DNA of 64,000 nt from the NCBI RefSeq assembly GCF_014905115.1, contig NZ_CP041235.1:1984001-2048000 (forward strand), read 5' to 3'. Position 1 is the stretch's first letter; the number at the start of each line of letters is the position of its first letter. The notes beneath the pieces were generated by a model. It had not been told where the DNA came from. It did no database searches and worked only from the letters and a program-made list of their open reading frames with translations. Below, one piece after another: positions 2,087 to 64,000 of this stretch. Origin of the DNA: Sulfurimonas sediminis. Lineage in GTDB: Bacteria > Campylobacterota > Campylobacteria > Campylobacterales > Sulfurimonadaceae. A program made the translations under genes and the position numbers.

Positions 2087-4269
2087 CCCTCCTTTATAAA
2101 GTCGATGATAAACTCAGCCCCCTCTTTTGTATTGCTTACATGTAAACGCCCGCCCATGTTTTGTTCAATTATTATCTTTGACATATACAGACCCACTCCT
2201 GTGCCCATACCCTGCTCTTTTGTTGTAAAGTAGGGCTCAAACACTCTTTTTATAATTTCCTCCGGTATTCCGCCTCCGTTGTCTGTGATAATTATCTTTT
2301 TGTCTTTCAGTCTAATGCCTATTTTTCCATACTCTTTACGGTTGTGGACAATGGCATCTTTTGCATTGGATATAATATTGAGAATAACCTGCTGAAACTC
2401 ACCTTCAACCCCATGAAGCATAAAATCCTCTCCTTGCAGTGAGATTTCAATATTGTGACTCTTTAACTGTGCATTTACCAAAGAAAGAGTGTTCTCGATG
2501 CTCTGTTTTACCCAAAAATCCTGTTTGACTTTATCGACTCTGAAAAAGTTTCTAAAATCATCTATCGTTTGACTCATAAAGTTTATTGTCTGTGTCTGTT
2601 TGTCAATAAATTCATCTATAAACTCTTTGTCAATCAAGCCCTCCTCATAATCATCATCAAGATTTTGAATATTGATATTGAGTGAATTGAGCGGTTGTCT
2701 CCACTGATGTGCTATGGCGCCGACCATCTCTCCCATCGCGGCCAATTTTGCCTGTTCCTGAAGCATTTTGTCTTTTTGCAGTATTTCGCTTGTACGTTTT
2801 TCTATCTCTTCTTTGAGGTGTTCATTAAGCTGTTGCAGTTGTGTCTCGAGTTTCTTTCTTTTGCTGACATCTATCAAATAGCCCAAAAAGTGGCTTATTT
2901 TCCCTTTTTCATCACGAATGAAGAGTGTTGTCTGTTCTACCCATTTTTTTGTTTTCTCTTTTGTTGTGATTTGATACGGCTGATGTTTTAAAATATCTAA
3001 ATTCTTTTCAAATGCTTCTGTAAGTTCATGGAGGGCGTTTTGCAAATCCTCTGCATCTATCAAATCAGGATATTCAATTTCACCCTTTAAAAATGCCTCT
3101 TTTGTATACCCTGTTAAAGAAACAACATTGTTGGAGACATATTCGACACTCCAGTGAATATCATTGTGCCATCGAAAAAGAGCAATATCTCCCTTGTCAA
3201 AAAGTTCCAGGAGCTTTTCTTGTTCCTGCGCTGTTTCTTTGAGTGCTTTTTTTCGAATAAACTGTAGATAAAAAAGATACACAAGCAAAAACAAGCCTAT
3301 GAATAAAATCAGACTGATAAGCTTAAAGTTATACAAAATAGACTGGATATTTGCATTGTCTTCATATAAAACGAGATAGGCTACCGTCTGTTTTGATTTT
3401 ACATTTTTTACAGGCAAAAAAGAGACAACTTTGACACTTTTTCCTGTTTTTTGATACAAAGAAAAAGCTTTGCATTTTTGCATATTTTCTTCTATCTCCT
3501 GCTGATGCTTTTGAATAATATTTTCTTTTAAATATTGCAGATACTGTGGTCGAACACCTTTTGTATAAACAAACATATAGTCATCTGACTCTATACTTGT
3601 TTTATAGTGCGCTAAAAATTCTTTGTCTTTGTACCATTTCACATCAAATACTTTTTTATTGACCAAAAAATGTGTGTAGAGTCTGTTTACTTTGGCAAGT
3701 CTGTTTTGAAAAGATTCTGAGGAAAAAGATATTTCATAGGCACAGATATATTTTTCTCCGTCAAACAAAGGAAAAACATTACGAAAACCATGTGCAATGC
3801 GCCCCTGCTCAAACCCTGCAATCGGTTTATGTGTTTTGTTGACATACTCAAAAGTATAACGAATACCTGTTAAATCATCCCCGTACCTGTCCGGTTTGTG
3901 CATGCGTAAAAAAGAGACATTGTCCGGGAGTACAAACTGCATTTGTAAAACACCGCGTTTTCGAATTTCGCGGTATTGCTTTTTCAAATGTTGATACAAT
4001 TCTTTTCGCAGGAACTCTCTTTTTGCCTCCCTTACATGTAAAGCCTTCTCCAATATACGCAAAACTGTTTCATCATTGGACACAAAGGCATTTAACGAGG
4101 CTGCATCTGCCTTGTCTGTCTCATTTACTATTTCATAATTTATTTTTAAATGCTTAAGAACCGAAGAGAGCTCTCTTTGAATTAAGTGGTTTTTATGATA
4201 GTTGTTCAGGTACTGGCTTACCACAAACAAAAGTAAAAACAAAAGCAAAAATATTATTTTCTGTTTCAT
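2083..4269 (-). CDS. PAS-domain sensor histidine kinase with large periplasmic domain
   Basis: The 728-residue protein has an N-terminal membrane segment (about 4-19), a roughly 300-residue periplasmic sensor of double-Cache type, a second membrane segment near 316-337, a PAS domain at about 360-470, a coiled-coil linker and a kinase core. The acceptor histidine is about residue 521 in the AHQWRQPL motif typical of Campylobacterota kinases. The ATP-binding N box (NIISNAKDAI) is near 630 and DNGGGI near 666. It overlaps by four bases the upstream response-regulator diguanylate cyclase, its likely partner. The signal is unknown. Confidence 0.88.
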   Translation of the reverse strand: MKQKIIFLLLFLLLFVVSQYLNNYHKNHLIQRELSSVLKHLKINYEIVNETDKADAASLNAFVSNDETVLRILEKALHVREAKREFLRKELYQHLKKQYREIRKRGVLQMQFVLPDNVSFLRMHKPDRYGDDLTGIRYTFEYVNKTHKPIAGFEQGRIAHGFRNVFPLFDGEKYICAYEISFSSESFQNRLAKVNRLYTHFLVNKKVFDVKWYKDKEFLAHYKTSIESDDYMFVYTKGVRPQYLQYLKENIIQKHQQEIEENMQKCKAFSLYQKTGKSVKVVSFLPVKNVKSKQTVAYLVLYEDNANIQSILYNFKLISLILFIGLFLLVYLFYLQFIRKKALKETAQEQEKLLELFDKGDIALFRWHNDIHWSVEYVSNNVVSLTGYTKEAFLKGEIEYPDLIDAEDLQNALHELTEAFEKNLDILKHQPYQITTKEKTKKWVEQTTLFIRDEKGKISHFLGYLIDVSKRKKLETQLQQLNEHLKEEIEKRTSEILQKDKMLQEQAKLAAMGEMVGAIAHQWRQPLNSLNINIQNLDDDYEEGLIDKEFIDEFIDKQTQTINFMSQTIDDFRNFFRVDKVKQDFWVKQSIENTLSLVNAQLKSHNIEISLQGEDFMLHGVEGEFQQVILNIISNAKDAIVHNRKEYGKIGIRLKDKKIIITDNGGGIPEEIIKRVFEPYFTTKEQGMGTGVGLYMSKIIIEQNMGGRLHVSNTKEGAEFIIDFIKEG

Positions 4270-5681: not shown

Positions 5682-7394
5682 ATGATTGATGTTGAAAAAA
5701 TGATTATAAAAAAATACCCCAAACTTAAAAACTCCAGAGTAATCAAAGGTGCAATTTCAAAATTTGCAGATTCTGTAGTCCATGAGAAACAAATCAATGA
5801 ATTTATCAAAAAAAACAGGCATTTGGGCAGTTTTGAGTTTATAGACGAAGCATTGCAGTACCTCAACTTTGATTTTTCCGTCTCAGACAAGGATCTTCAA
5901 AACATTCCTTCCTCCGGACGCGTTGTCATTATTGCCAATCATCCGCTTGGGTCTTTAGACGCACTCGCACTTATCAAGCTTGTCAGTAATGTCAGAAAAG
6001 ATATAAAAGTTGTTGCAAATGATTTTTTAGAAGTCATCACTCCCATAAAAAATATTTTAATCAATGTCAACAACTTTAAGGCACGGCAAAAAAAAGAAAC
6101 CGTTGCACAGGTATATGCGGCACTTGATGCAGAAGAGGCTGTCATCATTTTTCCTTCCGGCGAAGTAAGCCGGGCTACTCCGACAGGCATAAAAGACAAG
6201 ATTTGGCACAAAGGTTTTTTAAAATTTGCCAAAAAAGGCAATGCCCCCATACTCCCTGTATTTATTGGAGGGAAGAATTCCAAAACCTTTTACTCCGTAT
6301 CAGCGCTGAACAAAAAACTTGCAGCCCTGCTTCTTGCACACGAAATGTTTAAACAAAAACACAAAGCTATTGAAATGATTGTAGGCGAACTCATTCCTTA
6401 TGAAAACATAATGCCAAAAGGGATACAAAAGGACAAACTTGTCAAACTCTATAAAAAACATCTTTATGCCCTCAAAAAAAATGAGAGCTATTTTGAAACC
6501 CAAAAAGCAATCGCCCATCCCGAAGACAGACGGGATCTCAAAAAAGAGTTAAAATCATCACAACTGCTCGGAGAGACAAAAGACGGAAAAAAAATTTATC
6601 TCTACAGCAGCAGTGACAACAACTCTATTATCATCAATGAAATAGGACGGCTCAGAGAACTCTCCTTTCGTAAAGTCGGTGAGGGCATCAACAAAAAAAG
6701 AGATATAGACAAATATGACAGATGCTATAAGCACATTATACTCTGGGACGAGGAAGATCTTGAAATAGTCGGAGCATACCGTATAGCGGAATGTGCGGAT
6801 ATCATAAAGAAATTTGGCGTTGATGCCCTTTATACAACAACACTTTTTGATTACAACGAAGCATTTTTGCCTTACCTCCCCGATGCCATAGAACTCGGCA
6901 GAAGTTTTGTCCAACCAAAATACTGGGGTTCTCGGGCACTTGATTATTTGTGGTACGGCATAGGCGCATATCTCAAAAACAATCCGCATATCCGTTACAT
7001 GTACGGTCCGGTTTCACTGAGTGAAAATTATGCCAAAACAGCCAAAGATATGATTTTGTACTTTTATGATGAAAATTTTCAAGACAGACAAAATCTTGTC
7101 AGCGCAAAAAATCCCTACAACTTTAAAACAGATGAAACACTCATAGCAAATCTCAAAAAAGAGTTCAGTGCACCGGAGTACAAAGAGAATTTCAAAACAC
7201 TCAAAAAAGCTCTTGGCAGTATCAATGCCAATGTTCCGACGCTTTACAAACAGTATGCCGATCTGTGTGAAAAAGGCGGTATACAATTTTGCGCCTACAA
7301 TATAGACAGTGATTTTTCCAACTGTATAGACAGCTTTATAGTCGTCGACATTTCAAAAATAAAAGCATCCCAAAGAAAGAGATATCTAAAATAA
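5682..7394 (+). CDS. bifunctional acyltransferase, PlsC-like plus OlsB/GNAT-like (OlsF-like)
   Basis: The 570-residue protein joins two acyltransferase modules. The N-terminal half (about 75-270) is PlsC-like, with an acceptor motif around NHPLGSLDAL and FPSGEVSR further on. The C-terminal part (about 315-500) resembles the hemolysin-related N-acyltransferases of the OlsB family, with LSFRKVGEG, RDIDKYDRCY, VGAYRI and ELGRSFV. This arrangement matches OlsF, which makes ornithine lipid by N-acylating ornithine and then O-acylating the product. Ornithine lipid synthesis is an inference; other amino-acid lipids are possible. A TATAAT at 5647-5652 may be its promoter. Its stop overlaps the ATG of the next gene region by one base. 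Confidence 0.8.
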   Translation: MIDVEKMIIKKYPKLKNSRVIKGAISKFADSVVHEKQINEFIKKNRHLGSFEFIDEALQYLNFDFSVSDKDLQNIPSSGRVVIIANHPLGSLDALALIKLVSNVRKDIKVVANDFLEVITPIKNILINVNNFKARQKKETVAQVYAALDAEEAVIIFPSGEVSRATPTGIKDKIWHKGFLKFAKKGNAPILPVFIGGKNSKTFYSVSALNKKLAALLLAHEMFKQKHKAIEMIVGELIPYENIMPKGIQKDKLVKLYKKHLYALKKNESYFETQKAIAHPEDRRDLKKELKSSQLLGETKDGKKIYLYSSSDNNSIIINEIGRLRELSFRKVGEGINKKRDIDKYDRCYKHIILWDEEDLEIVGAYRIAECADIIKKFGVDALYTTTLFDYNEAFLPYLPDAIELGRSFVQPKYWGSRALDYLWYGIGAYLKNNPHIRYMYGPVSLSENYAKTAKDMILYFYDENFQDRQNLVSAKNPYNFKTDETLIANLKKEFSAPEYKENFKTLKKALGSINANVPTLYKQYADLCEKGGIQFCAYNIDSDFSNCIDSFIVVDISKIKASQRKRYLK

Positions 7395-9154
7395 TGAACA
7401 ATGAACTCACACAACAGTGGAAAAATAATCTTAAAATTCTTGATGTGGCTTTTCAGCCTATCATCAATATCCATACAGGGACACTCTACGGTGTCGAAGC
7501 CCTGCTGAGAAATTTTCAGGATGTCGGATTCAAGTCTATATTTTCACTCTTTGATGCTGTTTATAAAGAAAAACTTTTGTACTCTTTTGATTTGGCACTC
7601 AGAGAAAAAGCTTTAAAAAAATATACACAGATACAAAACTATAAAAACATAAAACTCTTTTACAATCTGGATAACCGGGTTTTGGAAATGGAAAATTTTT
7701 CAACCGGAAATACAACAAAAATTCTGCAAGAGCTCAATATAAAGAAAGAAAATATCTGTTTTGAAATTTCGGAAAGACAGGAAATTTCCAGTAAGTTTGA
7801 CCTTGAAAAAATACTCCAGCATTATAAAAAGGAAGACTTTTCAATTGCAATAGATGACTTTGGTGTCGGTTATTCCGGGTACAAACTCTTTTATGATTCC
7901 GCACCCGATATCATCAAAATTGACAGATTTTTTCTGCAGGGGCTTGCGACCAATATGAAGAAAAAACTCATGGTTCGCAACATCACACATCTTGCCATTC
8001 AGATGGGCATTAAGGTGATTGCCGAGGGTATTGAGACAAAAGAGGAGTACCTTACATGTAAAGATATCGGCTGCCACTTGGCACAGGGCTATCTTATTCA
8101 GAAACCTACAAAAAATACACAAAAAATTTATCAGCAATACGCAAACATTATCGACATTATAAAGTTAGACAGACGGATAAGTGACAAAAATATTTTACTG
8201 AAAAACAATATAGACAAAATTCAGCCTTTAAAGATTAAAACAAAAATGAATCTGGTCATAGAGTATTTTAAAAAGAATAAGAGTGTTCCCATTGTTCCTA
8301 TTGTGAATTCCCAAAACGAACCCGTGGGAATATTGCTTGAATCTGACATCAAAGAGTTTCTTTACTCTCCCTACGGCATGTCTTTACTCTTAAACGAACA
8401 AAACAACTCCAAGCTAAAAAACCTGCTTCACCCCTGCGGGCATGCAGATATCAACAGCAGCACCACTACCCTTATAGAACTTTTTGCGAACAATCCTGAA
8501 TCTTCAGGCATTATTATTACAAAAAACTCAGGCTATTATGGATTTTTATCCGCAAAAGCAATTATCAATATGATGCATCAGGAAAATATGATTCAGGCAA
8601 GAGACCAGAATCCGCTCACAAAACTTCCCGGAAACACAATGATTGAAAAATACATCTACAAAGTGTCCCAATCCTCAGCATCTCATCTTCTGTGTTATTT
8701 TGACCTTGACAATTTCAAAGCCTTTAATGATGTGTACGGTTTTCGAAACGGTGACAGGATTATTCAGCTTTTTGCAGATATTTTAAGAAAAGAACTGCCA
8801 AAAGATGTTTTCAAAGCCCACATAGGAGGTGATGACTTTTTTGTTGCCTGGGAGAATAAAGATTTTACCCATAGCTCTTTTGACACAAAAATGATAGAAA
8901 ATATTTTGGAAAAATTTGCTTCCTCTGCAAAAGAATTTTACAGCAAAAAAGATAAAGAGAACGGCTATATTGTTTCAAAAAACAGAAAAGAGCAAACATG
9001 CAGGTTTTCTCTGCTTACAGCAAGTGCCTCACTGCTTATCACGCCGGAGAAAAAATCATTCATAAGCGAAGAGCATATAAATACAATTCTCTCCTGTCAA
9101 AAAAAAGTTGCAAAAAATGAGCCAAAACATCTTGCCGTCAGTTCTTTGCTTTAA
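7394..9154 (+). CDS. EAL-CBS-GGDEF protein, likely c-di-GMP phosphodiesterase
   Basis: This 586-residue cytoplasmic protein has an unusual order: an EAL domain first (about 10-250), a CBS-pair-like region (about 265-395), then a GGDEF domain. The EAL domain has all the catalytic signatures: EALLR, EISERQE, IDDFGVGYS, IKIDRFF, IAEGIE and QGYLIQKP, so phosphodiesterase activity is expected. The GGDEF motif is degenerate (GGDDF near 477-481) and has no RxxD inhibitory site before it, so it may bind GTP or be regulatory. No membrane segment is seen. It follows the acyltransferase directly and is probably co-transcribed. Confidence 0.88.
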   Translation: MNNELTQQWKNNLKILDVAFQPIINIHTGTLYGVEALLRNFQDVGFKSIFSLFDAVYKEKLLYSFDLALREKALKKYTQIQNYKNIKLFYNLDNRVLEMENFSTGNTTKILQELNIKKENICFEISERQEISSKFDLEKILQHYKKEDFSIAIDDFGVGYSGYKLFYDSAPDIIKIDRFFLQGLATNMKKKLMVRNITHLAIQMGIKVIAEGIETKEEYLTCKDIGCHLAQGYLIQKPTKNTQKIYQQYANIIDIIKLDRRISDKNILLKNNIDKIQPLKIKTKMNLVIEYFKKNKSVPIVPIVNSQNEPVGILLESDIKEFLYSPYGMSLLLNEQNNSKLKNLLHPCGHADINSSTTTLIELFANNPESSGIIITKNSGYYGFLSAKAIINMMHQENMIQARDQNPLTKLPGNTMIEKYIYKVSQSSASHLLCYFDLDNFKAFNDVYGFRNGDRIIQLFADILRKELPKDVFKAHIGGDDFFVAWENKDFTHSSFDTKMIENILEKFASSAKEFYSKKDKENGYIVSKNRKEQTCRFSLLTASASLLITPEKKSFISEEHINTILSCQKKVAKNEPKHLAVSSLL

Positions 9155-16678: not shown

Positions 16679-17772
16679 GACTGCACTCCTGCCAGCTCTT
16701 TGCAAACCAGTCTGAGTGTCTCACTCTTTTCACCGAGTCTTGCAATCAGGCGAATTATTGCAGAGGCAACCGTAGGCTGGCGTATCGCCCCTACACTGTA
16801 ACCGGATTTCAAGAGCCTGTTTTTAATATCTATGACCTTTTTATTGTCTCCTATACGCACAGGCACAATCAAACCCTTTACATGTAAGCCCAACTCTTGT
16901 GAGACTATTGTCTGATGCAGCGCTATCTCTTTTTTCAGTGTTTCACTGTTTTTCAAAATATACTGCAACCCCTTATGCGCCAGGAGTGTATCATACAAAG
17001 AGAGCGCCGTTGCATATACGATCGGTTTTGCACGGTTTAAAAGGTATTGTGATATATGCTCAGATGAGAGTATAAAGGCGCCAAAACTTCCATAGGCTTT
17101 ACCAAGTGTTCCCATTTTAATGTAGTTCTCTTTTATCTTTATGTCATAATAATCAAACACACCCATGAGATTTTTTCCGATAACCCCACTGCTGTGGGCT
17201 TCATCAACGATTAAAAGAGCCTCTTCTTCATCACATATATCAAAAACCTCTTTTGCGCACAAATCGCCGTCCATCGAGTAAATACCCTCAACGGCAACAA
17301 TTTTTCGTCTGGCATTGGAGTTTTGCAGTAAACTTTGCAACTCCTGCATATCATTATGTTTGAAAAAAACCACATTTATGTTGTGAAGCTGTGAAGCAAG
17401 TACACCCGAGGCATGATAAAGTTCATCCATAAACAGTGTATCGCCACGGCGGACAAGCGATTCAATCAAGGCAATATTTGCATTAAATCCGCTTCCAAGC
17501 ACAATTCCTGCCGCAAAGCCGTTTGCTTCACATAAAGCCTCTTCAAAATCTTTGTGTATCTGATGATAGCCGTTTATCAGCATAGATGCCTTGGCATTGT
17601 TGAGCGGATACCCTGCTAATTCTTTACATGTAAGCGCATGGAGTTCTTTGTTGTGCGAAAGTCCCAAATAGTCATTTGAAGCAAAATCGTGCAGGGTATT
17701 GTCAACAATTTCACGTGTCCGATAACGCCCTGCTCTTTGAAGAGCTTTGAGCTCTTTTTCATAAAAATTCAT
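16675..17772 (-). CDS. bioF: 8-amino-7-oxononanoate synthase-like PLP enzyme
   Basis: The 365-residue protein belongs to the alpha-oxoamine synthases, which condense an amino acid with an acyl-CoA. It has LHDFASNDYLGLS near the N-terminus, VDEAHSSGVIG and the PLP-binding lysine in GTLGKAYGS. Its short N-terminus fits BioF (biotin pathway) better than glycine C-acetyltransferase. No other bio gene is in the window; it sits in a mixed operon and overlaps neighbours on both sides by four bases. Confidence 0.85.
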   Translation of the reverse strand: MNFYEKELKALQRAGRYRTREIVDNTLHDFASNDYLGLSHNKELHALTCKELAGYPLNNAKASMLINGYHQIHKDFEEALCEANGFAAGIVLGSGFNANIALIESLVRRGDTLFMDELYHASGVLASQLHNINVVFFKHNDMQELQSLLQNSNARRKIVAVEGIYSMDGDLCAKEVFDICDEEEALLIVDEAHSSGVIGKNLMGVFDYYDIKIKENYIKMGTLGKAYGSFGAFILSSEHISQYLLNRAKPIVYATALSLYDTLLAHKGLQYILKNSETLKKEIALHQTIVSQELGLHVKGLIVPVRIGDNKKVIDIKNRLLKSGYSVGAIRQPTVASAIIRLIARLGEKSETLRLVCKELAGVQS

Positions 17773-20599: not shown

Positions 20600-21156
20600 C
20601 AGTTTTTCTCCATAAAAGTCTCTAACACTTCGACACAAAGTCCCATTGCCGTACTCTCATAGCCTCTGACTTCTTTGATGTAGGGCTTGCAAAATCCTTC
20701 TACCATACAGGCACCAGCCTTGCCACGCCACTCTCCGCTCTCCAGATATGCTTCAAGATCCTCGGCACCAAATTCTGAAAAAATATAGTCTGTTTTGGAA
20801 ATATCTATGATTTTTTGCTTTTTTGAATGGTATATCATACATGTAATGATACTCGTAATATTTCCACTTTGCGTCATTAAAATATTACGGGCATCATCTT
20901 TGCAGCGTGCTTTTCTTAAAATATGTCCCTGGCTTGTGACAACAGTATCGGCTACCAAAAGCGGATACTCTTCACAGCCAAATGCTTTGAGGTTTGCTTC
21001 ATATTTGCCTAGAGTCGCCTGATAAACAAAGTTTTTCGGGCTGTTTGCGACAATGCTCTCTTCATCAAAATCAACACTCTCTTGAATAAAATCAATGCCG
21101 GCTTTTTCTAAAAGCATGGCGCGTGTCTGAGATGATGAACAGAGTCTAATACGCAT
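20599..21156 (-). CDS. maf: Maf-family nucleoside triphosphate pyrophosphatase
   Basis: The 185-residue protein starts with a Maf-type phosphate-binding segment ([18 protein letters not shown], where many homologues have SASPRR) and keeps VDFDEES, the substrate Asp in LVADTVV and the GEWRGKAGA region. Maf proteins hydrolyse non-standard or modified NTPs. The first motif departs from the common SxSPRR form. It overlaps the CopD-like gene by eleven bases and the downstream cyclase by one. Confidence 0.85.
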   Translation of the reverse strand: MRIRLCSSSQTRAMLLEKAGIDFIQESVDFDEESIVANSPKNFVYQATLGKYEANLKAFGCEEYPLLVADTVVTSQGHILRKARCKDDARNILMTQSGNITSIITCMIYHSKKQKIIDISKTDYIFSEFGAEDLEAYLESGEWRGKAGACMVEGFCKPYIKEVRGYESTAMGLCVEVLETFMEKN

Positions 21157-21685
21157 TTCGCAAAGTCACTCCCAGATAAATTGCAATAATCCCAAGCGTG
21201 ATATTGATGGGAACCATATATTTTCCAATAAGCTCTAACGCTTTTTTTGCACCTGCCGTATCACCTTTGGCCAAAAGTTTCTGTGCTTTGTTGCGTCTGA
21301 AAATCATAGCCGTAAGATTAGCCGCCATAATCATCCAAATCACCTCTTTTACATGTACCAGATTATATATATGCATCGCATACTCATCTATCACATTACC
21401 GCCCGCATCAACGGCAGCTACACGAAAACCAAGCCCAACAGCCATGATGACCGCTGTAATGATAAGTATAACAACAAAAGGTAAAACAATCATAAAGAGT
21501 CTGTTGAGTGCCTGCGAAATTCGCTCGAGTCTGTGCAGTGGTGATTCAATCTGTATAAACGAAGGATGCGCTGCGAATTTCATGGCAATCATCCCTCCGA
21601 CCCATACAACAGCGGAGATTACATGTAAGAAGAGTATCTGTATTCTATAATCTGCAAAAAGTTCTATCATAAAATCTTTCATCAA
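21146..21685 (-). CDS. CopD-like inner membrane protein
   Basis: The 179-residue protein has about four hydrophobic segments (near 13-33, 60-85, 115-130 and 155-175). [12 protein letters not shown] at the start and a later His-rich HVKEV resemble CopD-type or DUF2269-type membrane proteins, which may bind metal or heme through conserved histidines. Function is not established. It sits between alaS and maf with overlaps at both ends. Confidence 0.55.
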
Positions 21686-24234
21686 TCCAGTACCTCTGTA
21701 ATAAATTTCACTGCTGCTTCTTTTGCCTCAGGCAGTTTTGAAGCATCTTTTCCTCCGGCTTGGGCAAAATCAGGACGACCGCCTCCGCCTCCGCCAAGAA
21801 GCGGTGCTATTTTTTTGATCCAATCACCCGCTTTTGCCTCGCAGCCTTTGACACCTGCGGCTATGAGAACCTTGTCACCTTTGACTTGAAAAAGCATTGC
21901 ACAGAGTTTCTCATTTTGGTTTTTGAGCTCATCTATCTTTTCTTTAATATCACCATTTGGCAGTTCATCTACAACTACCGACACACCGTTTATCTCATCT
22001 GCTTTTATTTCAACTTTTGCAGCTTCGTGTGCCTCTTTAAGTTCATCTTTCAAAGTAGCTATATTTGATTTGAGCCTGCTGATTCCTGCAAGCAGATCAA
22101 GATTTTTGACTTCACTCTGCGCCTCTTTTACAAGCGCTCTTTGTTCACAAAAGTATTTATACGCCGCATTGCCACACACTGCTTCAATACGTCGCACACC
22201 GGCACTCACACCGCTCTCTTTTGTAATGATAAACGAGCCGATATTTGCTGTATTGTCTACATGTATTCCGCCACAAAACTCTACAGAAGCATCTGCAAAT
22301 TTGACAACGCGTACCTCATCACCGTATTTTTCGCCAAACTGGCTCTTCGCGCCTGATTTTTTTGCCTCTTCTATAGGCAGTACCTCGGTTTGCGCAGGAA
22401 TTGCACGCATGATTTCAACATTAACACGCTCTTCTATTACATGTAACTCCTCTTCACTAAGCGCTTTTGGATGAGAAAAATCAAATCGCAGACGATTTGC
22501 CTCAACCAAAGAACCCGCCTGTGAAACATGTTCACCAAGCACATCAAAAAGTACAGCATGCAAGAGGTGTGTTGCCGAGTGATGCTTTGTTATCTCATTT
22601 CTGGAAATATCCACTTTTGCATCTACATGCTGTCCGACTTTGAGAGAGGCATGCAACTCAATCTTCGACAGATTCAAACCAAAGAATTTTTTCGTATCAA
22701 CTACTTTTGCAAGGTCTTCAAGCTCTCCGATATCACCACACTGTCCACCACTTTCAGCATAAAAAGGCGTAACATCCAAAAATACCCAGCCTTTTTCTCC
22801 CTCATGTAACTCTTCAACGCGCACATATTTCTCATCAAGCAGTGCCAGCACTTTACTTGCATGATGCATAGTTTCATATCCGACAAATTTGTTTTCACCA
22901 AACTCCTCAAGCAGTGCTTTAAAGTCACCGCTCACAGCATCGTCTCCACTTCCTTTCCAGGCAGCTTTTGCACGTTTTTTCTGCTCACTCATCAGGCGCT
23001 CAAATGTTGCCGTATCAAGCGAGAGATTTTTTTCTTTGAGCATATCTTCTGTCAAATCAAGCGGAAAACCGTAGGTATCATAGAGTTTAAAAGCCACTTC
23101 ACCCGAAAACACTTCTTTTGTATTTTGCAGCTCCATATTAAAAAGTGCTATGCCTGATTCTATTGTTTTGAAAAATCGTGCCTCTTCAAGTTCTATCTGT
23201 TCTTTGACAACCTCTGCTTTAGTCTGAAGATACTCATACTCTCCACCCATAATATCAACCAAAGTATCTACAAGCTTGTGCATAAACGGCTCACGAAATC
23301 CGAGAAGATATCCGTGGCGCACAGCGCGTCGCAGGATTCTTCGAAGCACATATCCGCGTCCCTCATTAGAAAAATTTACACCCTGAGAGAGTAAAAAGAC
23401 TGCGGTTCTAATGTGATCAGCTATAACACGGTACGATGCACCCGTAGCGTACACATACTCTTTGCCTATCAAATCTTCGACTTTTCGGATAATCGGCATA
23501 AACAAAGAAGATCCATAATTGGAAATGGCACCCTCTTTAATGGCTACAACACGCTCTAAGCCCATGCCTGTATCTATAGACGGATGTGCAAGAGGAATTC
23601 TCTCTCCCCCTTTTTCTTTGACTTCATACTGCATAAAAACAAGATTCCAAATTTCCAAAAATCTGTCGCCTTCACCGCCCATATAATCTTCAGGGCCGTT
23701 AAAGTGTTCTGCTCCCTGATCATAAAAGATTTCAGAACACGGTCCACACGGTCCTGTGTCACCCATAGACCAGAAATTGTCTTTGTCTCCCAAACGCATA
23801 ATACGTTCCGGGGCTATATGCTTTTTCCAGATTTCTTCAGCTTCATCATCGCTTTCATGCACTGTTACCCAGAGTTTGTCTTTATCCAGATGCAATATCT
23901 CCGTGATAAACTCCCAGGCATAGGCAATTGCCTCTTCCTTGAAATAGTCTCCGAAACTGAAATTTCCCAGCATCTCAAAAAATGTATGATGACGAGCCGT
24001 ATGCCCGACATTTTCAAGGTCATTGTGTTTTCCACCCGCACGGATACAAGTCTGGCAGGATGTGGCACGAGGATTTTCAGGACGAGGAACCTCTCCCGTA
24101 AAAATCGACTTAAAAGGCACCATGCCTGCGTTGTTAAAAAGCAGAGTCGCATCTTCAGGTACCAAAGGCGCTGAGGGAACTCTTGTATGTTGTTTTGATT
24201 CAAAAAATTTTAAATACTCTTCTCTAATATCCAT
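21682..24234 (-). CDS. alaS: alanine--tRNA ligase
   Basis: The 850-residue synthetase charges tRNA-Ala. The catalytic core includes the family segment [23 protein letters not shown] and the class II motifs. The editing domain has the zinc-binding HHSATHLLH and CGGIHV signatures that remove Ser and Gly. The C-terminal coiled coil and Gly-rich [15 protein letters not shown] complete the protein. It is the first gene of an eight-gene overlapping operon ending at the PBP1A gene. Confidence 0.97.
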
Positions 24235-28311: not shown

Positions 28312-28380
28312 GACTGGGTATCCTTTATGTAAATAAAATTTCACTATAATCATTATATTACAAATTATCAGGAATATACA

Positions 28381-38047: not shown

Positions 38048-39302
38048 TCCTGATCATAGCAGGCTTTGCATTGACAAAATCAAGCTGTTCTATTTCATTC
38101 ATCATATTTTGAATGTCTTTTTCCAAAGCTGTATGTGTCGATATAAGAAGATTTGCACTTGCGTTTTCTGTCGGACGCTGCAGCATTGTCTCAATCGAAA
38201 TATCATTTTGTTCAAAAATTTTTGTCAATCCGGCAAGCACGCCTGCTCTGTCTGAAACATTGATTCTCAGGTAGTATTTGGATCTGATTTTTTCAGTTGG
38301 CTTGAGCGTGAGCTGACTCCCTTCCATCGGTCTGTTAAATCCGAGCATAGGAGTCGATTTTCCACTTCTAGCAATATCTATAATGTTTGCCACAACTGCT
38401 GAAGCTGTCGCATCACCACCTGCACCTGGTCCATAATACAATGTTTCACCTACTTTGTCACCTACAACAGAGATACCGTTCATCACACCGTCTATCTTTG
38501 CTATCATCTCCTCTTGTTTGATTAAACAGGCATGCACACGCAACTCAACTTCATTTTTGTCTTTTTTTGCAATACCCAAAAGCTTGATGGCATAGCCGAA
38601 CTCTTTTGCAAAAGATATATCATCCTGTGTAACATTTTGTATACCTTCTATGAGAATATCTTCAGGTTTCGCGTCAATGCCATAGGCAATCGAAGCCAAT
38701 ATAAGCAGTTTATGCGCTGCATCATATCCGCCCACGTCAAAAGTAGGGTCCGCCTCGGCATATCCGAGTTCCTGAGACTCTTTGAGTATGTCATCATAGG
38801 CCACACCCTCATTTGTCATTTTCGTCATCATGTAGTTACATGTACCGTTCATAATACCCACTATTGACTCTATATGATTGGCTGAAAGACCGTCACGAAG
38901 TGCTGTAATGATAGGAATACCGCCGGCGACACTCGCTTCAAACTCAAAAGCTTTGTCTTTGGCAATCTCTTGGAGTTCGTACCGATGATATGCCAAAAGT
39001 GCTTTGTTTGCAGTCACAACAGATTTTCCGGCTTTGAGTGCACGCTTGACAACTTCAAAAGGCTCTTCCACTCCGCCCATCAACTCTACAACAATGTCTA
39101 TCTCTTCATCATTAATAATATCATCCACATTGTCTGTGAGTGTTATATCCAAACCTCTCTCTTTTTGAAGATTTTTAACCACACCACTTTTGACAACAAT
39201 ATCAACACCCGCACGGGCAGAAATCACATCAGCATTCTCTTTTAAAATCTGCGCTACACTTGTTCCTACAGTTCCTACGCCTATTATTCCGACTTTTATC
39301 AT
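38040..39302 (-). CDS. hom: homoserine dehydrogenase
   Basis: The 420-residue enzyme reduces aspartate semialdehyde to homoserine, for threonine and methionine. It has the nucleotide-binding GIIGVGTVGTSVAQIL, catalytic-domain segments VAGGIPIITALRDGL and GTCNYMMT, and DPTFDVGGYDAAHKL. A C-terminal ACT domain (about 345-420, YLRINVSDRAGVLAGLTKIF) would bind threonine for feedback. Its ATG overlaps the aminotransferase stop (TAATG). Confidence 0.95.
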   Translation of the reverse strand: MIKVGIIGVGTVGTSVAQILKENADVISARAGVDIVVKSGVVKNLQKERGLDITLTDNVDDIINDEEIDIVVELMGGVEEPFEVVKRALKAGKSVVTANKALLAYHRYELQEIAKDKAFEFEASVAGGIPIITALRDGLSANHIESIVGIMNGTCNYMMTKMTNEGVAYDDILKESQELGYAEADPTFDVGGYDAAHKLLILASIAYGIDAKPEDILIEGIQNVTQDDISFAKEFGYAIKLLGIAKKDKNEVELRVHACLIKQEEMIAKIDGVMNGISVVGDKVGETLYYGPGAGGDATASAVVANIIDIARSGKSTPMLGFNRPMEGSQLTLKPTEKIRSKYYLRINVSDRAGVLAGLTKIFEQNDISIETMLQRPTENASANLLISTHTALEKDIQNMMNEIEQLDFVNAKPAMIRIV

Positions 39303-45609: not shown

Positions 45610-46281
45610 CTAAAGCAATATTTTACTTGCAACAGCCATAACAGCACTCTCAGAACGAAGAATCATAGGTGTACCCAGCCTAAAAACTTCCTGATTTTTC
45701 AAAAACTCTTTTTCTTTGGCTGAAAACCCGCCCTCACAGCCTATCAGTACCGTTGTAAAATCACTCTCACACTCCAGTTTTTTATCTGTAAAATCAAAAA
45801 CTTTTGTCTCCGGATTTTCTTTGATAAATACTTCAAGCCCTTTACATGTAGCAAACTCCATAAACTCTGTTCGCCCACACTGCTGATTTGAAGCCTGTAA
45901 AATTCGTTCAAACCGCTTAAAATCAGGTTTAAAGTTTTTCTGACTGCGCTCACAGTAGATGAAAGTAATCTTCTTCACCCCTGTTTCGTTCAGACTTGCC
46001 AGTACTTTTTCAACAGACTTGTTATCAATGACACACCAGCCGATATGCAGCTCTTTTTCTGCTTTGACTCTCAGAATTTCTGAAGAAATACGCGCAAACT
46101 CTGCCGTTCTTGGTTCTATCTTCTGCAGCCTGTAAAGATGAAGCGTATCTATATCTTCTTTATTGCGAAAGCCCAGTTCGTCACCGACTTTGTGACGGCG
46201 TACTTTTATGAGGTATTTAAAGTCTTCGCTCTTTACATGTAAAGTCTCCTGCCCTGCCTCTGCATTGAAAAGATATACCAT
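45610..46281 (-). CDS. rsmE: 16S rRNA (uracil1498-N3)-methyltransferase
   Basis: The 223-residue SPOUT protein has the RsmE pattern: N-terminal PUA-like part with YLIKVRRHKVGDELGF, then VEKVLASLNETGVKKITFIYCERSQ, QCGRTEF and the SAM-binding VLIGCEGGFSAKEKEFL and RLGTPMILRSESAV. It methylates U1498 of 16S rRNA. It begins one base after the small membrane protein gene. Confidence 0.93.
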   Translation of the reverse strand: MVYLFNAEAGQETLHVKSEDFKYLIKVRRHKVGDELGFRNKEDIDTLHLYRLQKIEPRTAEFARISSEILRVKAEKELHIGWCVIDNKSVEKVLASLNETGVKKITFIYCERSQKNFKPDFKRFERILQASNQQCGRTEFMEFATCKGLEVFIKENPETKVFDFTDKKLECESDFTTVLIGCEGGFSAKEKEFLKNQEVFRLGTPMILRSESAVMAVASKILL

Positions 46282-48315: not shown

Positions 48316-48734
48316 GCATTCTCCTCTTTACATCTTTTGGCATACATGTAAACTTTGTTTAAAAAAGCCTCCAGACTCTGCTGACGGACAGGAGAAAGAT
48401 GTTCGATTATTCCTAATTTCTCAAGCTCTTTGGGATCAAAGGCAAGAATATCATCCACCTCCTGTCCGCTGAAAATATCTAAAAGCAGACTCAGCATTCC
48501 CTTTGCCATTTCACTGCTGCCCTCACCTCTTATAATAAGCTTACCCTCTTTACACTCACCGACAAGCCAGGCAGGAGATGCACAGCCTTCTATAAATGTT
48601 GCTTCATTTTTTTCTTCTTGGGGCAGTGTGGTATGTTTTTTCCCCAAATCAAAAATATATTCAAACTTTTCGTTTGGTGTTTCAAACATCTCCAGATCTT
48701 CTTTGTAGTAATTTACTTTGTCCCTGACACTCAT
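48312..48734 (-). CDS. sufE: SufE-family sulfur acceptor
   Basis: The 140-residue protein has the SufE core: KFEYIFDLGKK near residue 22, and EGCASPAWLVGE, whose cysteine receives persulfide from a cysteine desulfurase. GEGSSEMAKGMLSLLLDIFSG follows. SufE passes sulfur to SufB. The desulfurase SufS is not encoded in this window. It overlaps sufD and the sufT-like gene by four bases each. Confidence 0.92.
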   Translation of the reverse strand: MSVRDKVNYYKEDLEMFETPNEKFEYIFDLGKKHTTLPQEEKNEATFIEGCASPAWLVGECKEGKLIIRGEGSSEMAKGMLSLLLDIFSGQEVDDILAFDPKELEKLGIIEHLSPVRQQSLEAFLNKVYMYAKRCKEENA

Positions 48735-55325: not shown

Positions 55326-55328
55326 TAA

Positions 55329-56307: not shown

Positions 56308-57522
56308 TTAAACTTTTTTTTCAAATTTTGTGATAAATGGAAGTATAATCCATAAACCGATAAACGTTAATGCCGCATATAAACCGATAGTGCTAAATAC
56401 ACCTTCTGGCGGAACCTTACCCATTGCCGTCAGTATGATCATGTCAATCAACATTGCCCAAAACCAGTATTTAAACAAACCACGACGTGACGCAGGTACT
56501 GCATTTGGACTTTTGTCTAAAAATGGCAATAAGAAGAAAATAACCTGTGCAAATGCAAATGCAATCAACCCAACATCAGTAGAAAATGGACGTAAAATCT
56601 CATAAGACCATAAGAAATACCACTCAGGGTAAATATGCGCTGGAGTCTTCAGACCATCTGCCGGGTCAAAGTTTACAGGATCCATTGCAAAATCATAGTG
56701 ATAAAATACAAGATAGAAGAAAAGAATAAGGAAAATACCTACAACCATCATATCTTTTGCCAAAAAGTCATTCATAAAACGAATTACTTTTGAGTTTGCT
56801 TTATCTCCAGCCAAATATTTTTTCGCTTCAGCATCAAAGTCAATCTCTTCACCATCTTGATTATTTACATGTGGAATACGAAGCGCACCGAAGTGTAATC
56901 CGATAAGACCGATAATTGCCAAAGGAATCAACAATACATGTAACATAAAGAAACGGTTCAAAAATGCCTGAGCAGGAACATAATCTCCACGAATCCACTC
57001 AACTAAACCATCAGCATGTAAACTACCGCCGGCAAAAAGGTTTGTAATAACCATACCTGCCCAGTAAGACATTTGACCCCATGGAAGCATATACCCTGAA
57101 AATGCTTCTGCTGAAAATGCAACAAATAAAAGCATACCCGAGATCCAAATCATTTCACGGCCGTTCTTATATGAACCATAATATATACCCGTAAACATAT
57201 GTATATAAATAATTAAAAAAACTACCGATGCCGCTACACCATGCACATGCCTCCACAGCCAGCCGTAACCGACTTCTTGCATTATCGTGTAGTTTACACT
57301 GTCAAATGCCAAATCAATGTTTGGCTGATAATACATCAACAAGAATATACCTGATACTAATAACAATCCAAATGTAATTGCAAGTATCATACCCATTGCC
57401 CATAAAAAATTGATATTCTTAGGAATCCAATATTCTGTTGCTAAAACACGATTAAGCGTGTCAATAGCAAGTCGTTGATTGAGCCAATCATGCAAATTTT
57501 TTGCTTTTGTAAAATGTGCCAT
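56308..57522 (-). CDS. petB: cytochrome b subunit of the bc1 complex
   Basis: The 404-residue protein has about eight membrane helices. Heme-ligating histidines are seen in WRHVHGVAAS and FFMLHVLLIPLAIIGLIGLHFG, with GYMLPWGQMSYW between, and the quinol-site PEW motif in IYPEWYFLWSYEIL. It oxidises menaquinol and moves protons. It lies between petA and petC in the operon. Confidence 0.96.
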   Translation of the reverse strand: MAHFTKAKNLHDWLNQRLAIDTLNRVLATEYWIPKNINFLWAMGMILAITFGLLLVSGIFLLMYYQPNIDLAFDSVNYTIMQEVGYGWLWRHVHGVAASVVFLIIYIHMFTGIYYGSYKNGREMIWISGMLLFVAFSAEAFSGYMLPWGQMSYWAGMVITNLFAGGSLHADGLVEWIRGDYVPAQAFLNRFFMLHVLLIPLAIIGLIGLHFGALRIPHVNNQDGEEIDFDAEAKKYLAGDKANSKVIRFMNDFLAKDMMVVGIFLILFFYLVFYHYDFAMDPVNFDPADGLKTPAHIYPEWYFLWSYEILRPFSTDVGLIAFAFAQVIFFLLPFLDKSPNAVPASRRGLFKYWFWAMLIDMIILTAMGKVPPEGVFSTIGLYAALTFIGLWIILPFITKFEKKV

Positions 57523-58133: not shown

Positions 58134-59000
58134 TTATAAATTTAAGCTTTCCTTTAGAAAGTTTACCATTTTGTTACTATTTTTTTCAATTGTTCCGTAG
58201 TTTCTCGTAAAAACAGTCTCTAATATCACATTTAAGTGACTTTTATCATAATTATGAACGACAGGAATATTTAAGCTTTCAAACAGAGGAATAAAATCCC
58301 GTGTGTAATCTTCTCTTTGTATATAAACAGGTTTCCCGCCAGCAGCTAAAGAATCAAGGACTGCCTGTGGCGAAGCTGTTACTAAAACTTCACTCTGCAT
58401 TATCATTGCATCATACTCTTCAAATTCGAAGTAATGAACGAATCTTGTTTTTAACATTTCTTCATAATCTAGAAAATAATAAAATCCCAGTTGCAAATAC
58501 GGGTGTAAATCTTCTATAAAGTCCAAATGTTTTTGTAAATCTTTTTCATAATCATCATCCCCGAAAAAATAAGAAAGTGGCACTGTTTTTTCTTTACATG
58601 TAAAGTATTTGTCAGCTACAACCACGGCTTTGCAGATACCTTCACCTTCCAAATAGGGAGAGAGCAAAAACTCATTTTCCGCTTTTACCTCATCAGGCTT
58701 ATCACTGATTCTCACAAATCTTGAAAAATAGTTTCGCATATCTTCAAGCATAATGGAATTAGCTTCCTCAGAATCAAAAATTAATTTGTCGCCGTTATGG
58801 GCAATTTGGGGAATATTTCGCACAACATCAATCCCCACGCTCTTGTCTATGCCAAAATCTCGTGCCGCCTGTGCAATTCTGTAGTCACTTGTCAGCAGTG
58901 TAATATCTTCATCCTCTAAAGCATTGAGTATCGCCACCGCTCTGCGAAATCTGTCCAGACCTATTCTGTGCCCCGTATGCACATAATAAAAAGTTCTCAT
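58134..59000 (-). CDS. glycosyltransferase-like protein of unknown function
   Basis: The 288-residue soluble protein starts [23 protein letters not shown] and later has [27 protein letters not shown], which resembles the nucleotide-sugar-binding half of MurG/PseG-like GT-B enzymes. The first half recalls the N-terminal Gly-rich loop of that fold. No substrate can be named. It overlaps mnmG by four bases. Confidence 0.5.
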
Positions 59001-60874
59001 TGTTTTTTTGCAGCCATTCTGATATATATATGCAGTATCTCTATCGCTGCCGGTGTAATTCCGCTGATGTTCATTGCAGCCTGGAGTGTCGGCGGAGAAA
59101 AAGCCGCCAGTTTTTCCTGTACCTCTTTGGAGAGTCCGCTCACACCCGTAAAATCAAAGCCTTCGGGTATTTTGACTTTGAGATACTTTTTCATACGCTC
59201 TATCTCTTGGCTCTGTTTGTCAACGTAGCGGGCATATTTGCCTTCTACCAAAATTTCTTCTTTTATGTAGTCATCATACTTGTCAAGTTCAGGCACAACT
59301 GTGACCATCTTCTGCACATCAAATGTTTTACGGGCAATAAGCTGCTGTGCGGTTGAGACATCTTTTAGAGGCTGTTCATCCATAGATGCAAGCAGTGCGT
59401 TAAACTCTTTGTTTGGCGTAAATTTTGTATTTTCCAAAAGCTGTGCACCTTCTTGTATCTGCTGTGCTTTTGTTTTGATTTTTTCATACTGTTCATCAGA
59501 AATGAGTCCAAGTTCATGTCCATATTTTCCCAGTCTAACATCTGCAGACTCTTCACGAAGCAAAAGACGATACTCTGCACGGGAGGTAAACATTCTGTAA
59601 GGCTCATTCGTTCCTTTGGTTACCAAATCATCTATAAGCACACCGATGTATGCCTCATCACGACGAAGAATAAGCGGTTCTTTATTTTGCAGGGCCAAAG
59701 AAGCATTGATACCCGCCATAATCCCCTGTGCCGCTGCCTCTTCATAGCCTGTTGTCCCGTTTATCTGACCGGCTAAATAGAGTCCTTTGATTTTTTTGGT
59801 CTCAAGCGAATGTTTCAGCTCACGCGGATCCACAAAATCATACTCTATGGCATAGCCGTAACGGACGATTTTTGCATTTTCCATTCCCTTGACCGAGTGG
59901 ATCATATCCCGCTGCACCTCCGGCGGTAAAGAGGTACTCAGACCGTTGACATAAATCTCCGTGTTGTCCATAGTTTGTGGTTCCAAAAAGAGATGATGTC
60001 TCTCTTTGTCTGGAAACTTGTCTATTTTATCTTCTATAGATGGGCAGTATCTCGGACTTTTTCCGGCAATCTGACCGGTAAACAGAGGAGCCCTGTAAAA
60101 ATTGCTCTCAATAATTTGGTGCGTGGTCTCATTTGTATAGGCAATGTAGCACGGCAGTTGTTTTTTTGTCGCACGGAATTTTTCTCTGTCTGTTCTAAAA
60201 CTAAAAGGATTCGGCAACGCATCCCCACCCTGCTCTTCCATTACGGAAAAATCAATGCTTGAAGAGTCAATACGCGCGCAGGTTCCTGTTTTTAAACGTG
60301 CCATACTGAGCCCTGCATCATTTTTAAGCGAAGCAGAAAGTCCGACGCTTCGTGGTTCACCAAAACGTCCGCCCTCTTGCTGTACCTCGCCTACATGTAT
60401 GATACCGTTGAGAAATGTCCCTGAAGTGATGATGACTTTTTTGGCTCTGTACTCATTTAAAAGTGCGGTGCGGACACCTTTTACCTCATCTTCTTCTATG
60501 ATTAATGATTCAACCGTATCCTGTGCCAAATCAAGATTGGGTGTACCCAGTACAACATTTCTGGCGATTATACGGTACTTGTCCATATCTATCTGTGCAC
60601 GGCTGCCGCGAACAGCCGGTCCTTTTGTCTGATTGAGTATGCGAAACTGAATGCCCGCTTCATCGGTAATCAGTCCCATTTCACCGCCGAGTGCATCAAG
60701 CTCCCGCACCAAATGCCCTTTTGCGAGTCCGCCCACAGCAGGATTACAGGAAGTCGCTCCGACATTTTCCGCAAGCATGGAAATCATCAGTGTTTTGTGC
60801 CCCATTCGAGCTGCCGCCAAAGAAGCCTCTATACCCGCATGTCCACCGCCTACTACTATTACATCATAATTCAT
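58997..60874 (-). CDS. mnmG: tRNA uridine 5-carboxymethylaminomethyl modification enzyme
   Basis: The 625-residue FAD protein (GidA) modifies the wobble uridine of several tRNAs with MnmE. It has the FAD-binding [53 protein letters not shown] and [18 protein letters not shown] helical C-terminal domain binds MnmE. The length is normal for the family. It is divergent from the small-protein/Sel1/ribE operon, with a structured palindrome between. Confidence 0.97.
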
Positions 60875-62013: not shown

Positions 62014-62022
62014 GGAGCTGAT

Positions 62023-62637: not shown

Positions 62638-62644
62638 TTTTTCA

Positions 62645-62700: not shown

Positions 62701-62729
62701 AAAAAAAGTTGACAACAAATGGAGTACAA

Positions 62730-64000
62730 ATCAAAAATCAGGTTTTAAAAGACAATTTCGGACACAATAGTTTCAGAGAGTTGCAAGAAGAAGGTGTGGA
62801 TGCCATCTTAAACGGACAGGATTTACTGATGATACTGCCAACCGGCGGCGGGAAATCTCTTGTTTATCAACTTCCAACCATGATGATGGAGGGCATTACC
62901 ATTGTTATATCTCCGCTTATTGCACTGATGCAAGATCAGGTACGCGCCCTGCAGGCACAAAATATTTCCGCTCAAATGATAAGCTCGGCACAGAGTCATG
63001 AAGAGGTGCAAGATATTATATCACAGGCATACAGCGGGGCTTTGAAATTTTTATACCTCTCTCCAGAGCGCCTGAACAACGGACATACCATTGAACTGCT
63101 TCGGGGTTTACATGTAAACTTTTTCGTTATAGATGAAGCACACTGCATCTCCCAATGGGGGCATGAGTTTCGAGATGACTACCGTGCTTTGGGAAATTTA
63201 AAACATAATTTTCCAAACACGACCATCGCCGCTTTTACGGCAACTTCAACCGACAATGTCACACAGGATATTTTAAGAGAATTGCGTCTTGAAAATCCGC
63301 TTCTACTCAAAGGAAAGGTATTTCGTAAAAATATTTTTATCTCCGCACAAAGACGCATCAGCAACGGGCATGCTCAGCTTAAAAATTTTCTCTCACGCCA
63401 TCAAGACGAGAGTGGTATCATTTATGTCAGTTCGCGTAAAAAAGCCGAAGAGCTAAGTGCTTTTTTAAATGTAAACGGCTACAAATCACTTGCCTATCAT
63501 GCCGGACTGCCTCAACATGTAAGAGAGCAGAATTTTAAAATCTTTGTCAATGACAAAATCAACATCATGGTTGCCACCATCGCCTTTGGCATGGGTATAG
63601 ACAAAAGTGACATTCGTTTTGTCGTGCATATGAGCCTGCCAAAATCACAGGAGAATTATTATCAGGAGATTGGTCGTGCGGGGCGTGACGGAGAAGACAG
63701 TGAAGTGCTACTGCTTTTTAATGCAGGTGATATGGCACAGCATAAACGCTTTTTAGCAGAGATTACAAACGAAGAGTACAAAGCCCATCTTGATAAAAAA
63801 ATAGACAAAATATACAAATATGCCACCAGTGAAATCTGCTTTCACAAACAACTCGCCGAATACTTTAACGATACCCTTGATGCGTGTAAAGAGCGTTGCG
63901 ACAACTGCCTGACATCCGATGACAAACGACAAGACATCACAAAAGAGGCACAAATGGTTCTGAGTACGATTTATAAAACAAATCAGAGCTTCGGGAAAAA
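62730..64000 (+). CDS. recQ: ATP-dependent DNA helicase RecQ (partial, runs off the window)
   Basis: An open frame continues to the window end (about 423 codons). It has the RecQ helicase motifs: ILPTGGGKSLVYQLP (Walker A), SPLIALMQDQV, VIDEAHCISQWGHEFR (DEAH), AFTATST, AYHAGL, VATIAFGMGIDKSD and QEIGRAGRDG. Zinc cysteines follow (CKERCDNC). The family start KNQVLKDNFGH follows an ATC at 62730-62732, five bases after GGAG. The alternative is a TTG at 62709 in frame with a poor ribosome site. The exact start is therefore uncertain. Confidence 0.93.
   Translation, partial: MKNQVLKDNFGHNSFRELQEEGVDAILNGQDLLMILPTGGGKSLVYQLPTMMMEGITIVISPLIALMQDQVRALQAQNISAQMISSAQSHEEVQDIISQAYSGALKFLYLSPERLNNGHTIELLRGLHVNFFVIDEAHCISQWGHEFRDDYRALGNLKHNFPNTTIAAFTATSTDNVTQDILRELRLENPLLLKGKVFRKNIFISAQRRISNGHAQLKNFLSRHQDESGIIYVSSRKKAEELSAFLNVNGYKSLAYHAGLPQHVREQNFKIFVNDKINIMVATIAFGMGIDKSDIRFVVHMSLPKSQENYYQEIGRAGRDGEDSEVLLLFNAGDMAQHKRFLAEITNEEYKAHLDKKIDKIYKYATSEICFHKQLAEYFNDTLDACKERCDNCLTSDDKRQDITKEAQMVLSTIYKTNQSFGK
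63106..63119. repeat. longest example of the iterated palindrome TTACATGTAA
   Basis: GTTTACATGTAAAC is a 14-base perfect palindrome inside recQ. Its core TACATGTA occurs 21 times in the window by my reading, always within genes. Other full TTACATGTAA copies start at 2136, 4032, 8052, 16878, 17624, 21619, 22437, 37525, 46233 and 58594. Confidence 0.7.

Follow-up and report, generated by a model that had tools for sequence, protein, structure and literature searches.

Eight dialects of the DNA uptake sequence (DUS) of the Neisseriaceae are described as sharing a CTG core and following the core-genome tree (PMC3630211), and two dialects of the Pasteurellaceae uptake signal sequence (USS) as non-palindromic words with a common inner GCGGT core (PMC12616744). 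In Campylobacter jejuni, as outlined in PMC8468864, RAATTY is methylated by CtsM and uptake is confined to DNA that bears this methylation. The highly iterated palindromes (HIPs) of cyanobacteria are reported to be GC-rich and to occur at 1000-2000 per Mb (PMC4390886). Here we analyze a 64,000-nucleotide stretch of the Sulfurimonas sediminis chromosome (NZ_CP041235.1, positions 1,984,001 to 2,048,000; hereafter the window), the genes of which carry many copies of a 10-nucleotide palindrome, TTACATGTAA, and of its 8-nucleotide core, TACATGTA. Among the papers listed in literature searches, we saw none that describes uptake words in Sulfurimonas and none, by title, that deals with TTACATGTAA itself.

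We propose that TTACATGTAA (core TACATGTA) is a putative DNA uptake, or self-recognition, sequence of this Sulfurimonas lineage, and we put the probability of this proposal at about two in three. We favor it because the word is strongly enriched, because relatives use mutually exclusive dialects, because sites are kept up between genomes of the same dialect, because words are scarce near methylase genes and, in the case of one sister word, on a plasmid-like contig, and because competence genes are present. In the mechanism we envisage, a competent cell would prefer DNA of its own kind by means of a short word. A DNA-binding receptor of the competence machine, which is type IV pilus-like, would recognize the word, fragments bearing it would be taken up more often, and homologous recombination would spread and maintain it by molecular drive. 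A change of receptor could then bring about a change of dialect and, with it, genetic isolation of the lineage.

We began with the whole chromosome, a single contig of 2,320,257 bp (G000). It holds 425 copies of TTACATGTAA (183 per Mb), whereas the reversed word, counted as a control, occurs 3 times. The signal is genome-wide, and the near-expectation counts that would have spoken against a sequence-only reading of the window were not observed. Further analysis used a 464-kb sample consisting of the window and 20 evenly spaced 20-kb stretches (L009-L028), in which TACATGTA occurs at 293 per Mb. Against a second-order Markov model, TACATGTA was present 136 times with 11.0 expected (12.3-fold), making it the most over-represented palindromic 8-mer of the sample (runner-up 3.8-fold), and TTACATGTAA was present 73 times with 0.97 expected, about 75-fold; both stood well clear of the remaining palindromes of their length. 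The inner hexamer ACATGT was enriched only as part of TACATGTA: 66 of its 202 copies lie outside the longer word, and 153.8 were expected for all ACATGT. As a codon-aware control we performed 30 synonymous-codon shuffles within genes, using 458 home-made gene calls. The genes held 133 copies of TACATGTA compared to a shuffle mean of 18.7 (standard deviation (sd) 2.6), and 73 of TTACATGTAA compared to 7.9 (sd 2.1). The spread of TACATGTA round the chromosome was even, with a dispersion index of 0.89 over 20 regions. At short range, the first 100 listed sites were clustered, with 14 gaps below 150 bp and 2.8 expected, which is unexplained; at G000:C1:369932-369971 three copies of TTACATGTAA are spaced exactly 15 bp apart. 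In the same sample GGCC (0.34 of expected), CTAG (0.38), GATC (0.43) and CCTAGG (0.12) were depleted; for GGCC, CTAG and GATC this suggests past or present restriction pressure.

Within the window, a word count returned the 21 positions of TACATGTA and the 11 copies of TTACATGTAA that the sequence-only reading had reported. In 100 dinucleotide shuffles of the window TACATGTA averaged 0.84 (maximum 3) and TTACATGTAA 0.10 (maximum 2). By count, TTACATGTAA ranks first among palindromic 10-mers; among palindromic 8-mers TTTTAAAA is first (32) and TACATGTA second, but the excess of TACATGTA is far greater. All 21 copies lie within open reading frames (ORFs) and, as had been argued from their readings, they occupy all three codon phases: 12 are read as any residue followed by His-Val (xHV), seven as Thr-Cys-Lys (TCK) or a similar peptide, and two as Tyr-Met-Tyr (YMY). 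Together with the synonymous shuffles, this upholds the earlier view that selection acts on DNA and not on protein, and places the enrichment beyond codon and dipeptide use. The copies are given below without a strand of their own, followed by the host ORF, its strand and the local reading.
2136..2145, TTACATGTAA, in ORF 2083-4269 (-), sensor histidine kinase (PAS/HATPase_c), read LHV
4032..4041, TTACATGTAA, in the same ORF 2083-4269 (-), read LHV
6996..7003, TACATGTA, in ORF 5682-7394 (+), acyltransferase/GNAT, read YMY
8052..8061, TTACATGTAA, in ORF 7394-9154 (+), EAL/GGDEF protein, read LTCK
16878..16887, TTACATGTAA, in ORF 16675-17772 (-), class I/II aminotransferase, read LHV
17624..17633, TTACATGTAA, in the same ORF 16675-17772 (-), read LTCK
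20838..20845, TACATGTA, in ORF 20599-21156 (-), Maf-like, read ITCM
21350..21357, TACATGTA, in ORF 21146-21685 (-), without Pfam match, read VHV
21619..21628, TTACATGTAA, in the same ORF 21146-21685 (-), read LHV
22258..22265, TACATGTA, in ORF 21682-24234 (-), alanyl-tRNA synthetase-type, read IHV
22437..22446, TTACATGTAA, in the same ORF 21682-24234 (-), read LHV
37525..37534, TTACATGTAA, in ORF 37304-38047 (-), short-chain dehydrogenase, read LHV
37891..37898, TACATGTA, in the same ORF 37304-38047 (-), read STCK
38837..38844, TACATGTA, in ORF 38040-39302 (-), homoserine dehydrogenase, read GTCN
45843..45850, TACATGTA, in ORF 45610-46281 (-), RNA methyltransferase, read ATCK
46233..46242, TTACATGTAA, in the same ORF 45610-46281 (-), read LHV
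48343..48350, TACATGTA, in ORF 48312-48734 (-), SufE domain, read YMY
56935..56942, TACATGTA, in ORF 56308-57522 (-), cytochrome b-like (NCBIfam matches under their cut-offs), read LHV
58594..58603, TTACATGTAA, in ORF 58134-59000 (-), without Pfam match, read FTCK
60392..60399, TACATGTA, in ORF 58997-60874 (-), MnmG, read IHV
63108..63117, TTACATGTAA, in ORF 62709-63998 (+), reaching the window end, product not identified, read LHV

We next compared relatives, counting four words in 151 whole genomes of the family, with GGCATGTGGA, AAACGCAG and CTCACGCAG counted on both strands. Cut-offs for richness, chosen after the counts had been seen, were at least 100 copies for TTACATGTAA and GGCATGTGGA, at least 300 for AAACGCAG and at least 200 for CTCACGCAG. 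By these cut-offs, 36 genomes were rich in one of the four words and none was rich in two. Nineteen were rich in TTACATGTAA, four in the window's genus and 15 in genera g2, g4, g5 and g16, while most others held 0-10 copies; one of the 19 is the type strain Sulfurimonas autotrophica OK10 (G053; 2,153,198 bp as given in PMC3035374), with 340. Eight were rich in GGCATGTGGA (maximum 1302; others at most 71), five in the 8-mer AAACGCAG (maximum 2331; others at most 141) and four in CTCACGCAG (maximum 487; others at most 56). Some of the remaining genomes had intermediate counts, such as G125 with 43 TTACATGTAA and 36 GGCATGTGGA and G064 with 96 TTACATGTAA; the intermediates sampled (G064, G095, G139 and G141) prefer ACATGTA-type words. 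In G001, AAACGCAG is strand-skewed (111 forward and 30 reverse), more strongly than in the other genomes listed.

Word discovery on fetched stretches and 80 named mnmG loci yielded GGCATGTGGA, AAACGCAG, CTCACGCAG, ACATGTAG, AAACGCG, AAACGCCA and ACACGCAA in relatives. In sister species, non-palindromic words of 8-10 nucleotides replace the palindrome, which is one dialect among several. A recognizable word was present at 35 of the 80 mnmG loci; the 45 unlabelled loci reflect a score cut, and some of them are very short. We refer to the TTACATGTAA dialect as T and to the dialect with the word GCATGTGG as G, while C and K denote further non-palindromic dialects. Locus L105, mixed between TACATGTAA and ACATGTAG, was labelled T in the locus labelling and A in the pilin comparison described below, and some G and L handles appear to denote one genome, as the identical pilins of G140/L076 and G083/L123 indicate. 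The CGTCATTCTGA-type words of L118, L120 and L132 were not counted in the dialect set; we take the dense CGTCATTCTGA/CGTCATTCCAA words of these loci to be, probably, a dispersed repeat and not a dialect. In L046 (G007:C1), ACGAATCACG is repeated, with 8 copies in 7.6 kb. The Sulfurimonas endosymbiont of the snail Alviniconcha boucheti (L083) has its own word, AAACGCCA, present 8 times in 21.9 kb with 0.27 expected, and therefore this host-associated lineage may still exchange DNA.

To place the dialects we used mnmG as the marker gene for finding relatives and building a tree. The first matches of the window's MnmG were Sulfurimonas loci. In a quick-method tree of 81 rows, the window grouped with L100, L069 and the unlabelled L071 (support 95), and L070 was sister to this group (support 99 for the set of five). 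Despite 91% identity in MnmG, L070 had no TACATGTA but 15 copies of AAACGCAG in 21.9 kb. The window's group is nested in a 29-row set (support 87), all other labelled members of which have ACGC-type words. At a distance from this set, TTACATGTAA turns up again in L137/L138/L140 and in L142, and L105 carries a mixed form. The label needs five changes, four of them forced by starred branches, and the tree does not distinguish gain from loss. With L105 left out, TTACATGTAA still occupies three separate places. The 10-mer therefore probably arose repeatedly, either convergently or because whatever reads it was transferred.

We then asked how individual sites fare between genomes, comparing orthologous codons in proteins 60-97% identical with controls made of other 8-mers in the same genes and phase; hits at 97% identity or above were dropped and each site was counted once per dialect pair. 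Within a dialect, sites were kept far more often than controls: 52 of 70 from T to T (control 0.27), 20 of 34 from C to C (0.23), 67 of 128 from K to K (0.21) and 56 of 79 from G to G (0.12). When only sites of the window's genome were considered, T relatives retained 32 of 34 (control 0.32), a figure from which near-identical hits and repeats of a site had not been removed. Between genomes of different dialects the site survived in 8 of 781 comparisons, a low figure that is partly expected since sites were selected for having the word. The amino acids at the sites vary across dialects more than those at control codons (from G to T, 3% were kept compared to 38%), which argues that the words override protein sequence.

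Non-palindromic words occur on both gene strands (C 42:38, K 76:66, G 61:35, with some sense excess in G). Outside genes, GCATGTGG is enriched, with 38 of 134 copies compared to 12.0 expected; the pooled T set has 13 of 239 compared to 21.1, and T loci of other genera have 12 of 64 compared to 6.0. Intragenic-only placement, strong in the G000 sample, thus loses strength in the pooled T set, disappears in the T loci from other genera and turns round in G; we rejected it as a defining trait. Among 19 close pairs of GCATGTGG, 12 are inverted, all in the same arrangement (-+), a layout that could form hairpins; inverted, hairpin-capable pairs are described for DUS and USS (PMC2346458). Such pairs were not evident for AAACGCAG or CTCACGCA, and TTACATGTAA is itself palindromic. 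G001 has a second, plasmid-like contig of 49.8 kb encoding hydrogenases, NnrS and an integrase, and 40 kb of it held no CTCACGCA compared to 20.3 expected. DNA methylase genes have few words as neighbors: over 13 regions from four genomes, 8 words lay within 3 kb of such a gene compared to 39.9 expected. About 7 of the expected words are contributed by L239, a region already known to be word-free. Two G016 regions, with 3 sites nearby, were not counted because they offered no background density for comparison. The word was missing entirely from six of the 15 20-kb methylase regions examined. Of two 20-kb stretches recognized as word-free before their contents were known, one (L239) proved to be a type I restriction island and the other (L248) a conflict-type island.

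Competence genes are present. ComEC was detected in all 31 genomes tested, and comEC and priA are 3-5 kb apart in each of the ten for which we could place the two genes. Of 20 regions fetched around priA, 18 have one to three prepilin-like genes ahead of it; none was seen in the G150 and G136 stretches. Of the three in the window's genome, two match Pfam N_methyl above cut-off and the third falls just under. A competence protein of C. jejuni with a pilin-type N-terminus, Cj0683, is likewise encoded before priA (PMC10046745). Mapped onto the pilin tree, dialects change 9 times, compared to 5 times on the priA tree (22 genomes; 9 of the 31 had no pilin close to priA in the stretch and were left out).

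Several observations weigh against the uptake proposal. ComEC also occurs in six genomes without an identified word and is thus non-discriminating. No receptor was found at the priA-comEC locus, and neither the variable pilin nor the priA-adjacent pilin tracks dialect; the putative receptor would lie elsewhere or in a protein outside those sampled. Being a palindrome also sets the word apart from DUS and USS as these are described in the cited accounts. Single-mismatch copies of TACATGTA show no excess, at 0.65 of expected (controls 0.40-0.83); for the other words, a near-miss excess sits mainly at edge positions. Of the 151 genomes, 115 fall below the cut-offs for all four words, and for many of these no word was identified; other words occur in some, and some may lack one. 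In the sample of the window's genome the word is nearly all intragenic, with 133 of 136 copies of TACATGTA in genes and 3 outside, and for Haemophilus influenzae uptake words are described as somewhat fewer than expected in coding DNA (PMC2346458). One G053 methylase region is not depleted, with 4 words within 3 kb. Finally, scarcity in acquired DNA fits an uptake signal but also any slowly accumulating word.

Two alternatives invoke a DNA methylase, and HIP1 and CtsM led us to search for one with four Pfam models in the single-contig, TTACATGTAA-rich genomes G000, G053, G117 and G016. No full-length methylase of PF01555, PF02086, PF00145 or PF02384 was common to the four genomes; other families were not searched. 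PF01555 was found in none, PF02086 in G016 only, PF00145 in G000 only, and full-length PF02384 in G053 and G117 only, with one 22.8-bit fragment in G016. The sole PF02384 match of G000 (G000:C1:1810231-1811022) is weak, has an internal stop, lies within a word-free 20-kb stretch and looks like a decayed restriction-modification gene. A methylated uptake signal, in which the word is read through a methyl mark, has the precedent of C. jejuni, a member of the same phylum that needs a methylated motif at the first step of uptake (PMC8468864); lacking a methylase common to the motif-bearing genomes in these families, we consider it improbable here. We regard as slightly more improbable a HIP1-like palindrome that owes its origin and upkeep to a cognate methyltransferase, through methyl-directed repair or an epigenetic role. 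Such a word would be palindromic, intragenic and genome-wide, as ours is, and HIPs are described as changing between species along with a methylase (PMC4390886). However, the HIP1 comparison made in the sequence-only reading was not supported, nor did its suggestion to look for an orphan methyltransferase turn up a shared one in those families: the word is AT-rich, at about 180-290 per Mb, and the sister words are non-palindromic, which HIPs leave unexplained.

A palindrome present at hundreds of intragenic sites also suits a dimeric DNA-binding protein, and the word could be the binding site of a nucleoid or chromosome-organizing protein, examples of which are SlmA, Noc, MatP and SMC. The rarity of words in acquired DNA is not decisive against this alternative; the even spread round the chromosome and the unrelated, non-palindromic words of sister species speak against it, and we judge it unlikely. 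A recombination signal like chi or a segregation signal like the FtsK-orienting polar sequences (KOPS) would likewise be short, frequent and maintained, and chi sites are lineage-specific. Chi and KOPS are directional, which a palindrome cannot be, and neither CTCACGCA (61:81, P 0.11) nor GCATGTGG (15:13) shows replication-strand bias or a bias to the G-rich strand. We rejected a chi- or KOPS-like role on the absence of such bias in these two sister words, and give it very little credence. Hardest of all to credit is a by-product of codon use, dipeptides or transcription-factor sites. Leu-His-Val (LHV; TTA CAT GTA) is indeed the most frequent reading, with 67 of 133 in-gene copies of TACATGTA, but readings fall in three frames, amino acid conservation at sites across dialects is below that of controls, only 3 of 136 sites lie outside genes, and the synonymous shuffles (18.7 compared to 133) rule out a codon or dipeptide origin. 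Of the three roles offered by the sequence-only reading, an uptake-related one thus fits best, HIP1-like methylation was not supported, and DNA organization gained no positive support from the even spread and the dialect changes.

Other genes of the window deserve mention. Two transposase genes encoding an identical protein, at 10931-12025 (-) and 24504-25598 (+), are both word-free, and the one scanned belongs to the ISAs1 family. An oleate hydratase is encoded at 26599-28353 (-) (NF010584, 806.8 bits, above cut-off), which is unexpected in a probable chemolithoautotroph.

If TTACATGTAA is an uptake word, gene exchange would be self-selective across a widespread sulfur-oxidizing lineage, word counts would predict gene-exchange partners, and the family would offer a natural experiment on the loss, gain and re-invention of uptake dialects. 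For laboratory transformation of Sulfurimonas, carrying the right word on the DNA may offer a simple rule, and S. autotrophica OK10 shares the window's dialect, so a direct test is possible there. A palindromic uptake word would imply a symmetric receptor, dimeric or orientation-blind, which is a way of recognizing DNA that the cited DUS and USS papers do not describe. More tentatively, and at somewhat less than even odds, Sulfurimonas and its sister genera may represent a radiation of uptake dialects that exceeds both known ones in breadth, in which unrelated words, palindromic and not, swap wholesale within a genus, hundreds of sites and the underlying amino acids are rewritten, and TTACATGTAA has arisen three times or more, perhaps because a receptor gene was exchanged horizontally.

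Compared to described systems, the words studied here share with the DUS of the Neisseriaceae, which is read by the receptor ComP, their short length, hundreds to thousands of copies, dialects and scarcity in foreign DNA; the inverted pairs of one dialect may be a further likeness. They differ in that the words are unrelated (CATGTA-, CATGTG- and ACGC-type), switch within a genus and include one palindrome that recurs in separate clades. The Pasteurellaceae USS, for which the receptor is predicted to be ComN/PpdA, is likewise a genome-wide word with dialects, intragenic and intergenic copies and no general orientation bias, as described in PMC2346458, whereas here there are four or more words, no core unites them, and one is a palindrome. 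HIP1 and the alternate HIPs of cyanobacteria are also highly iterated intragenic palindromes with alternates in relatives; the present word is AT-rich, less dense, without a shared methylase in the families searched and accompanied by non-palindromic sister words. The CtsM/RAATTY system of C. jejuni likewise makes a choice between self and non-self DNA, in the same phylum and with a Cj0683-like pilin gene before priA, but it depends on methylation, whereas no shared methylase was found here in the families searched, and the C. jejuni account we draw on makes no mention of dialects. Among the DUS and USS examples compared, a palindromic uptake word would be new. What appears to be new in the present system is a set of words without a common core, one of them palindromic, that switch within a genus.

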